This document shows positions 35,285 through 43,271 of a stretch of DNA of 64,000 nucleotides, piece after piece. A program made the position numbers and the translations under genes. The stretch spans positions 62,001 through 126,000 of the forward strand of contig NZ_PQVF01000006.1 of NCBI RefSeq assembly GCF_002920915.1. Reading direction: 5' to 3'. The notes under the pieces are model-generated. The model was not told the DNA's origin and did no database searches. It saw nothing but the letters and a program-made list of their open reading frames with translations. How positions within the stretch are numbered: the stretch's first letter is position 1; each line of letters opens with the position of its first letter. This stretch comes from Solitalea longa. Lineage in GTDB: Bacteria > Bacteroidota > Bacteroidia > Sphingobacteriales > Sphingobacteriaceae.

Positions 35285-35475
35285 TTTAGTACTCAGTCTG
35301 CAGTCGGCAGTCAACAGTCTGCAGTCAACAGTCTATGGTATATAGTCGAGATCTTAACTTCGTACTTCATATTTTAAATCGTACTTCATCCTTTAAATCG
35401 TACTTCAACAATCCCCAATCGTACTTTGTACTTTTAACTTTGTACTTTAAATCGTCATTCTACAATCGTCAATCT
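35285..35475. repeat. Low-complexity repeat tract between susD and desaturase genes
   Basis: Imperfect repeats of CAGTCTGCAGTCAACAGTC (about 35290-35335) are followed by repeats of ATCGTACTT and TTTGTACTTT (about 35350-35455). No ORF. Such degenerate spacer repeats are seen in intergenic DNA of this phylum; function unknown. Confidence 0.5.
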
Positions 35476-35485
35476 CCAATCTCCC

Positions 35486-42467: not shown

Positions 42468-42501
42468 AAAAAGAAAAGCCCTTATTAGGGCTTTTCTTTT
42501 T
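42468..42501 (-). terminator. Strong terminator of the tRNA-like array
   Basis: A perfect 14-bp inverted repeat (42468-42481 with 42488-42501) and a 6-nt loop. On the minus strand it ends in a T-rich tract, 3 nt past the last tRNA-like unit. Its symmetry also allows use from the plus strand. Confidence 0.85.
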
Positions 42502-42503
42502 GG

Positions 42504-42619
42504 CTGTAGGGGAAGGAGTCGAACCTTCAAGGAGTGGTTATCATTCAATTGCTTGAGCTTTCCCATCATTCTCCACCACCGAGACAAGGAGGTGTGTCTG
42601 CCTGTTTCACCACCCTACA
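42504..42619 (-). tRNA. tRNA-like class II RNA, last copy (unit 1)
   Basis: Same architecture as the copy at 43104-43219. The extra arm has a GCAA tetraloop and otherwise matches copies 2-4. Identity as a working tRNA is not proven; candidate anticodon GUC. Confidence 0.5.
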
Positions 42620-42653
42620 TTGTATGTGAGTTGTTGTTGTAAATTCTTTTTAG

Positions 42654-42769
42654 CTGTAGGGGAAGGAGTCGAACCTTCAAGGAGTGGTTATCATTCAATT
42701 ACTTGAGCTTTCCCATCATTCTCCACCACCGAGACAAGGAGGTGTGTCTGCCTGTTTCACCACCCTACA
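42654..42769 (-). tRNA. tRNA-like class II RNA, unit 2
   Basis: Identical to units 3 and 4. Its extra-arm tetraloop is GUAA in place of GCAA. Core arms as in the first transcribed copy. Confidence 0.5.
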
Positions 42770-42803
42770 TTGTATGTGAGTTGTTGTTGTAAATTCTTTT
42801 TAG

Positions 42804-42919
42804 CTGTAGGGGAAGGAGTCGAACCTTCAAGGAGTGGTTATCATTCAATTACTTGAGCTTTCCCATCATTCTCCACCACCGAGACAAGGAGGTGTGTCTG
42901 CCTGTTTCACCACCCTACA
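42804..42919 (-). tRNA. tRNA-like class II RNA, unit 3
   Basis: Identical to units 2 and 4, spacers included. Tetraloop GUAA, candidate anticodon GUC. Confidence 0.5.
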
Positions 42920-42953
42920 TTGTATGTGAGTTGTTGTTGTAAATTCTTTTTAG

Positions 42954-43069
42954 CTGTAGGGGAAGGAGTCGAACCTTCAAGGAGTGGTTATCATTCAATT
43001 ACTTGAGCTTTCCCATCATTCTCCACCACCGAGACAAGGAGGTGTGTCTGCCTGTTTCACCACCCTACA
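42954..43069 (-). tRNA. tRNA-like class II RNA, unit 4
   Basis: Identical to units 2 and 3, spacers included. Tetraloop GUAA, candidate anticodon GUC. Confidence 0.5.
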
Positions 43070-43103
43070 TTGTATGTGAGTTGTTGTTGTAAATTCTTTT
43101 TAG

Positions 43104-43219
43104 CTGTAGGGGAAGGAGTCGAACCTTCAAGGAGTGGTTATCATTCAATTGCTTGAACTTTCCCATAATTCTCCACCACCGAGACAAGGAGGTGTGTCTG
43201 CCTGTTTCACCACCCTACA
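43104..43219 (-). tRNA. tRNA-like class II RNA, first transcribed copy (unit 5)
   Basis: Read on the minus strand: a 7-bp perfect acceptor stem (TGTAGGG/CCCTACA), U8, a D arm of 3 bp (GTG/CAC) with GG and A21 in the loop, and a perfect T arm (GAAGG/CCTTC with TTCGACT). These are textbook tRNA features. The anticodon arm (43192-43176) has a 5-bp stem with a central U-U mismatch and loop TTGTCTC, giving U33, GUC (Asp codons) and an unusual U37. The extra arm is 47 nt (43175-43129) instead of the usual 10-24; GGAG/CTCC can close it, and it contains a TCAA-GCAA-TTGA hairpin. No CCA is encoded. It could be an odd tRNA, a tRNA with another job, or a stable tRNA mimic. Confidence 0.55.
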
Positions 43220-43238
43220 TTTTCTTTGTTTGTTGATA

Positions 43239-43271
43239 CAAATATAGGTAAACAATTTGTTTTGATGCAAA
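43239..43271 (-). promoter_or_regulatory. Consensus Bacteroidota promoter of the tRNA-like array
   Basis: On the minus strand TTTG (43271-43268), a 21-nt spacer, then TATATTTG (43246-43239), an exact fit to -33 TTTG / -7 TAnnTTTG. Transcription would begin about 43233, roughly 14 nt before the first tRNA-like RNA. Confidence 0.75.

Follow-up and report, generated by a model that had tools for sequence, protein, structure and literature searches.

The closest known parallel to the RNA described here is the indirect, tRNA-dependent pathway to asparagine of Deinococcus, Thermus and Bdellovibrio, in which a non-discriminating AspRS and the amidotransferase GatCAB act on tRNA-Asn (PMC4206432). Bacteroidetes that have AsnRS, GlnRS and GatCAB and lack an asparagine synthetase were noted in 2014 as bacteria that probably make asparagine by a tRNA-dependent route; they have one AspRS (PMC4206432). 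The bases recognized in such reactions have been described as well: the aspartate identity set comprises G73, G34, U35, C36 and C38, with G2-C71 as a minor element, while the determinant for amidation of Asp-tRNA is U1-A72, and G1-C72 and U20a prevent this reaction in tRNA-Asp (PMC9976931). In E. coli, the regulator AsnC activates the asparagine synthetase gene asnA, and asparagine counters this activation (PMC8707732). Altogether, tRNA-dependent asparagine synthesis on tRNA-Asn is already known; a dedicated non-decoding carrier is undescribed in the literature searched (subscription journals and preprints fell mostly outside its scope), and no description of the RNA presented here was found in it.

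The locus analyzed here encodes a tRNA-like RNA that is likely to be a dedicated, non-decoding adaptor for tRNA-dependent asparagine synthesis. As in the indirect pathway, aspartate would be placed on a U1-A72 RNA and amidated by GatCAB, AsnRS and GlnRS are also present, and AsnA and AsnB are missing in some members. In contrast to that pathway, where the carrier is a decoding tRNA-Asn and AspRS must be non-discriminating, the carrier proposed here would be a non-decoding RNA dedicated to the task, and its aspartate identity would make it a possible substrate for an ordinary AspRS. We lean towards regarding it as a metabolic class of non-coding RNA, in which AspRS identity joined to a GatCAB signal would enable bacteria whose AspRS is ordinary to produce free asparagine on an RNA, under the control of the asparagine sensor AsnC.

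On the minus strand of the window (the whole stretch of 64,000 nucleotides that was analyzed), direct reading of positions 42504 to 43271 gave five units, each of 116 nt and repeated with an exact period of 150 bp, together with one promoter and one terminator (Table 1), and Tandem Repeats Finder reported a period of 150, 4.9 copies and 99% matches over 42494-43221. These results agree with the preliminary description in the strand, number and period of the units, in the promoter and the array-ending terminator hairpin, and in the parts of each unit, namely a 7-bp acceptor stem, U8, a 3-bp D arm (GTG/CAC) with GG, a 47-nt extra arm and a T loop TTCGACT with A58. The unit length, given there as 115 nt, is 116 nt when counted from U1 to G73. 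The -7 element TATATTTG ends 19 nt before U1 of unit 1. The anticodon stem has a U29.U41 mismatch, which the preliminary description does not mention.

Table 1. Coordinates of the array and its parts in the window.
Feature	Position	Strand	Basis or remark
Array promoter, -33 element TTTG	43268..43271	-	Sequence
Array promoter, -7 element TATATTTG	43239..43246	-	Bacteroidota consensus TAnnTTTG; 21-nt spacer to -33
tRNA-like RNA unit 1, U1 to G73, 116 nt	43104..43219	-	Sequence, Tandem Repeats Finder, homologues
Unit 1 anticodon GUC	43183..43185	-	Anticodon loop UUGUCUC at 43187-43181
Unit 1 variable arm, 47 nt	43129..43175	-	V1 stem GGAG/CTCC, V2 UGG/CCA, inner GNRA hairpin (GCAA)
tRNA-like RNA unit 2	42954..43069	-	Sequence, Tandem Repeats Finder
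tRNA-like RNA unit 3	42804..42919	-	Sequence, Tandem Repeats Finder
tRNA-like RNA unit 4	42654..42769	-	Sequence, Tandem Repeats Finder
tRNA-like RNA unit 5	42504..42619	-	Sequence, Tandem Repeats Finder
Intrinsic terminator hairpin closing the array	42468..42501	-	Sequence

The genome of the window carries two further diverged copies, of which the one on contig C1 has 90% identity and the one on contig C2 has 85%. Since an AsnC neighbor is absent at the array and present at the C2 copy, the array appears to be a secondary, paralogous amplification, which would raise the dose of the RNA. Multiple copies were also observed in relatives, with three copies 700 bp apart in genome G001 and five copies 370 bp apart in genome G048. 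Of 224 bacterial homologues among the matches listed, 101 have the -33/-7 promoter pair upstream, where 0.5 would be expected, and 73 have a boxA-like leader, GTTCTTT/A (3.9 expected). The promoter, the copy number and the boxA-like leaders suggest that expression may be high. Elsewhere in the window, short tandem repeats with units of 14-21 bp are clustered between genes at 35294-35481.

The RNA is carried by 39 of 100 relatives, with BLAST matches to a single unit in 37 of the 100, and a pattern scan of GTDB genomes located it in at least 120 stretches. The titles among the matches listed belong to Bacteroidota (Sphingobacteriales, Chitinophagales, Cytophagales and Saprospirales), with a single exception titled simply "bacterium", and 34 viral contigs carry the RNA, several of them near tRNA genes. 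A covariance model (R1), as proposed in the preliminary description, found further members. R1 also matches ordinary tRNA-Leu of 83-87 nt at about 55 bits, compared with 62-134 bits for true members; low-bit and short matches were therefore excluded, and a tally of 375/395 is not the frequency of the family. The RNA resembles class II tRNA-Leu in its D arm, D loop and overall fold and differs from it in anticodon, discriminator, first pair and size.

Folding of a single unit was not unusual (z -0.72), and the structure was therefore tested comparatively. Forty-five homologues were parsed and 43 were aligned with MAFFT (alignment A1). This alignment has both-sided changes in 10 pairs, compared with a shuffled mean of 3.5 and 0 of 500 shuffles as high, and the pairing was destroyed when the partners were slid out of register. 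In 47 hits of the model from a draw across the phylum, both-sided changes were found in 16 of 27 pairs, in an alignment that was fitted to the model; RNAalifold predicted the same cloverleaf from it. Both alignments show covariation in the V1 and V2 stems of the variable arm. The RNA thus has the 7-bp acceptor, D, anticodon and T arms of a cloverleaf, with a T loop TTCRANN, and its anticodon arm sets it apart from tmRNA, for which neither ARAGORN nor Rfam gave a match in the window. ARAGORN found no tRNA in the array, Rfam gave no match at gathering score, a relaxed Rfam scan returned chance-level matches only, none of them tRNA, and long-form copies were also missed by the Rfam tRNA model. 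The earlier opinion that this is not a described family is in line with these searches.

The conservation of individual bases was judged on the 47 covariance-model hits, which were not selected by anticodon. The GTDB genome pattern requires GUCNC and was left out when judging anticodon conservation, for which BLAST and model hits were used. U1-A72, G2-C71, U3-A70, U35, C36, C38 and G73 are invariant in all 47 hits, and G34 is found in 44, with C or U in the other three. U1-A72, G2-C71 and G73 are also present in 34 of 34 viral-contig copies. Position 33, described earlier as U, is indeed U in the copies of the window; across the family this did not hold, with U in 36 of 47 hits and A, C or G in the remainder. 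At position 37, A never occurs; most hits have U and the others C or G. Since the aspartate identity set and U1-A72 are kept while U33 and a purine at 37 are not, the RNA is predicted to bear the union of the AspRS and GatCAB signals and to drop features that the ribosome requires. This is consistent with the earlier suggestion of a high-dose, coordinately made non-standard tRNA or tRNA mimic, perhaps with a task outside translation, as the family is structured and keeps bases for aminoacylation and amidation, but not those for decoding.

The RNA shares G34, U35, C36, C38, G73 and G2-C71 with canonical bacterial tRNA-Asp(GUC). It differs in having U1-A72 rather than G1-C72, a class II-like body, a variable arm of 40 to over 100 nt and no conserved U33 or purine 37, and in being missed by ARAGORN and Rfam. 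Its enlarged D loop is class II-like (GGCAGA), and we read it as carrying A20a rather than U20a, plus an additional G20b. The ordinary tRNA-Asp of the window's genome, present in three copies, has G1-C72 and the loop CUGUCAC, and its tRNA-Asn has U1-A72 together with U20a in our own numbering, U20a being the antideterminant. In the anticodon domain of AspRS, an SRDLGG-type motif is common to the genomes with the RNA and to relatives without gatB; its Leu we take to mark discriminating enzymes, and the motif fits an AspRS of this kind in the genomes with the RNA.

It was set down as a prediction before testing that GatCAB would accompany the RNA and that asparagine synthetases would often be missing from genomes with it. 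With GatCAB scored by gatB alone, gatB was present in 38 of the 39 relatives with the RNA and, in a sample drawn separately from the phylum, in 36 of 36 same-class genomes with it. In 97 of 100 genomes, gatB is found exactly when GlnRS is missing or the RNA is carried. The three exceptions are G029, with the RNA and no gatB match, G014, with gatB, GlnRS and a broken RNA, and G071, with a gatB variant and GlnRS and without the RNA. Among the GlnRS-positive genomes, 36 have both the RNA and gatB, one the RNA only, two gatB only and 30 neither (Fisher p 4.6e-16, a value not corrected for phylogeny, as independent losses are few). Independent contrasts gave about three joint losses in the family and five pairs, for which the sign test was underpowered and not significant. 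The genomes with gatB and without the RNA nearly all lack GlnRS and would therefore need GatCAB for glutamine.

AsnRS was matched in 100 of 100 relatives, above the cut-off in 94, and AsnA in five of the 100 genomes, none of which carries the RNA. Ten genomes with the RNA have no AsnB above the cut-off. One of these is the window's own, in which AsnRS, GlnRS, gatB and the RNA are present and AsnA is absent. The genus of the window lacks any AsnB above the cut-off, and relatives without the RNA match an AsnB type of 560 aa. Most genomes with the RNA have AsnB-like proteins of 600-650 aa above the cut-off, so that the RNA may not be their only source of asparagine.

The gene neighborhood provides an additional link to asparagine. 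Of the bacterial and viral copies found by pattern, 155 of 263 among the matches listed sit in 123 loci beside one Lrp/AsnC protein, whose gene is the nearest upstream neighbor, invariably in divergent orientation and mostly at a distance of 125-190 bp. This protein best matches E. coli AsnC (PDB 2cg4, 124 bits versus 77 for the next) and the NCBIfam AsnC model, at 174 bits versus 77 for the next and below the equivalog cut-off. In an unbiased sample, 22 of 36 hits have this neighbor, and another class is represented among them. The asnC and asnA genes of E. coli form a divergent pair, and both arrangements have an AsnC orthologue that controls or neighbors an asparagine-forming step, a proposed one in the case of the RNA; here, the RNA gene stands in place of the asnA enzyme gene. 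As the ancestral RNA gene is divergent from asnC, an asparagine-sensing regulator probably controls the carrier, in the manner in which E. coli AsnC controls asnA. The preliminary description mentions neither this ancestral single-copy form beside asnC nor the U1-A72/GUC/C38/G73 signature nor the GatCAB link.

In the mechanism that we propose, AspRS would aspartylate the RNA by means of G73, G34, U35, C36 and C38, and GatCAB would convert the resulting Asp-RNA to Asn-RNA because its first pair is U1-A72 and not the G1-C72 of tRNA-Asp. Asparagine would then be freed from Asn-RNA by hydrolysis or transfer, and could be used by AsnRS, while AsnC would set the dose of the RNA. The carrier would have to be kept off the ribosome because an Asn-tRNA(GUC) would misread Asp codons, and both the length of the variable arm and the loss of U33 and R37 fit a molecule that is excluded in this way. 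If this is true, the RNA would be the missing Asp carrier of these Bacteroidota and would explain why GatCAB is retained where translation does without it. It would also be one of the few tRNA-shaped RNAs retained for metabolism rather than decoding, and would offer a clean system for studying how a charged tRNA is excluded from the ribosome. The family adds a widespread RNA that Rfam and ARAGORN miss and that viruses carry too.

Where the RNA was lost, the asnC promoter region often stays, and gatB is absent in 18 of 18 genomes of the Sphingobacteriaceae family that have AsnC and retain neither the RNA nor a large part of it. In genus g21, both the RNA and gatB were lost in G023 and both were kept in G043 and G056. 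In genus g5, remnants that resemble the acceptor stem and T arm only adjoin asnC (L251 and L259), and the genomes are reduced, at 1.7-1.8 Mb, and without gatB and AsnB. Judged by these losses, the tRNA-like part is predicted to depend on GatCAB. The main rival is an AsnC-controlled small regulatory RNA in which the tRNA-like 5' domain would serve for stability or for sensing or titrating AspRS, a reading that we consider unlikely. The pairs GcvA-GcvB and OxyR-OxyS are divergent regulator and small RNA genes, and the present locus resembles GcvA-GcvB in that an amino-acid-linked regulator is divergent from a non-coding RNA; GcvB, in contrast, is not tRNA-like and has no link to an amidotransferase. 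Additionally, in Sphingobacteriaceae a conserved 3' module, AGGTTTATAATTGGTTAG followed by a terminator, is found downstream of most copies and outlasts the loss of the tRNA-like part. This part of the transcript therefore has another role, which may be that of an independent small RNA or a trailer. A conserved apical GGGUUGACCAC in some variable arms could be read in the same direction. However, outside Sphingobacteriaceae the terminator directly follows the tRNA-like part, and a regulatory RNA would leave unexplained both the joining of U1-A72 to the aspartate identity set and the joint presence and loss of the RNA and GatB.

Two further explanations appear less probable still. An unusual but translating tRNA-Asp isoacceptor, or a tRNA that recodes Asp codons as Asn, would account for the GUC anticodon, G73 and the tRNA-like fold. 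This is highly improbable given the 11 of 47 hits without U33, the absence of A at position 37, the U.U mismatch that is fixed in the anticodon stem of Sphingobacteriaceae, the length of the variable arm (40 to over 100 nt) and the three ordinary tRNA-Asp copies already present; moreover, U1-A72 would permit amidation and misreading. Phages might also have spread the RNA as a decoy for AspRS or for anticodon nucleases, which would agree with the 34 viral contigs, in several of which the RNA lies inside tRNA arrays. We give this idea very little credence, as the chromosomal gene is fixed beside asnC in several families and in one or more further classes, and the link to GatB would be left unexplained. 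The dedicated adaptor for asparagine synthesis remains our preferred reading.

Several minor observations concern the variation of the RNA and its surroundings. On the divergent side of asnC, the 3' module was found without a tRNA-like domain at L243, L245-L250, L252, L253, L255, L256 and L258. Most Sphingobacteriaceae copies have a short variable arm with a GNRA hairpin; in many other copies, bacterial as well as viral, the arm is longer and bears the apical GGGUUGACCAC, which is near-identical between bacteria and viruses (e.g., L091:3130-3271 and L217:5195-5355). A pairing of GGGUUGACCAC with the D arm was considered and dropped, as covariation was not seen by eye. The anticodon arm contains ACACCUCCUU at 43193-43184 of the window, with the same arm in the other units, and it resembles the 3' end of Bacteroidota 16S rRNA; a fixed anti-Shine-Dalgarno mimic was likewise dropped, since the motif is confined to Sphingobacteriaceae and not kept elsewhere. 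Among the viral contigs, L211 carries a large tRNA array, GOLLD RNA, a tmRNA and a copy of the RNA with a hairpin-bearing D loop. L217:7214-7350 holds a 137-nt tRNA-like gene with an enlarged anticodon/variable region and a weak Rfam tRNA match, and L221:2000-4772 and L236:55-2664 hold several tRNA-like genes with a common acceptor stem, AGTCAGG...CCTGACT, and odd centers of varying length.
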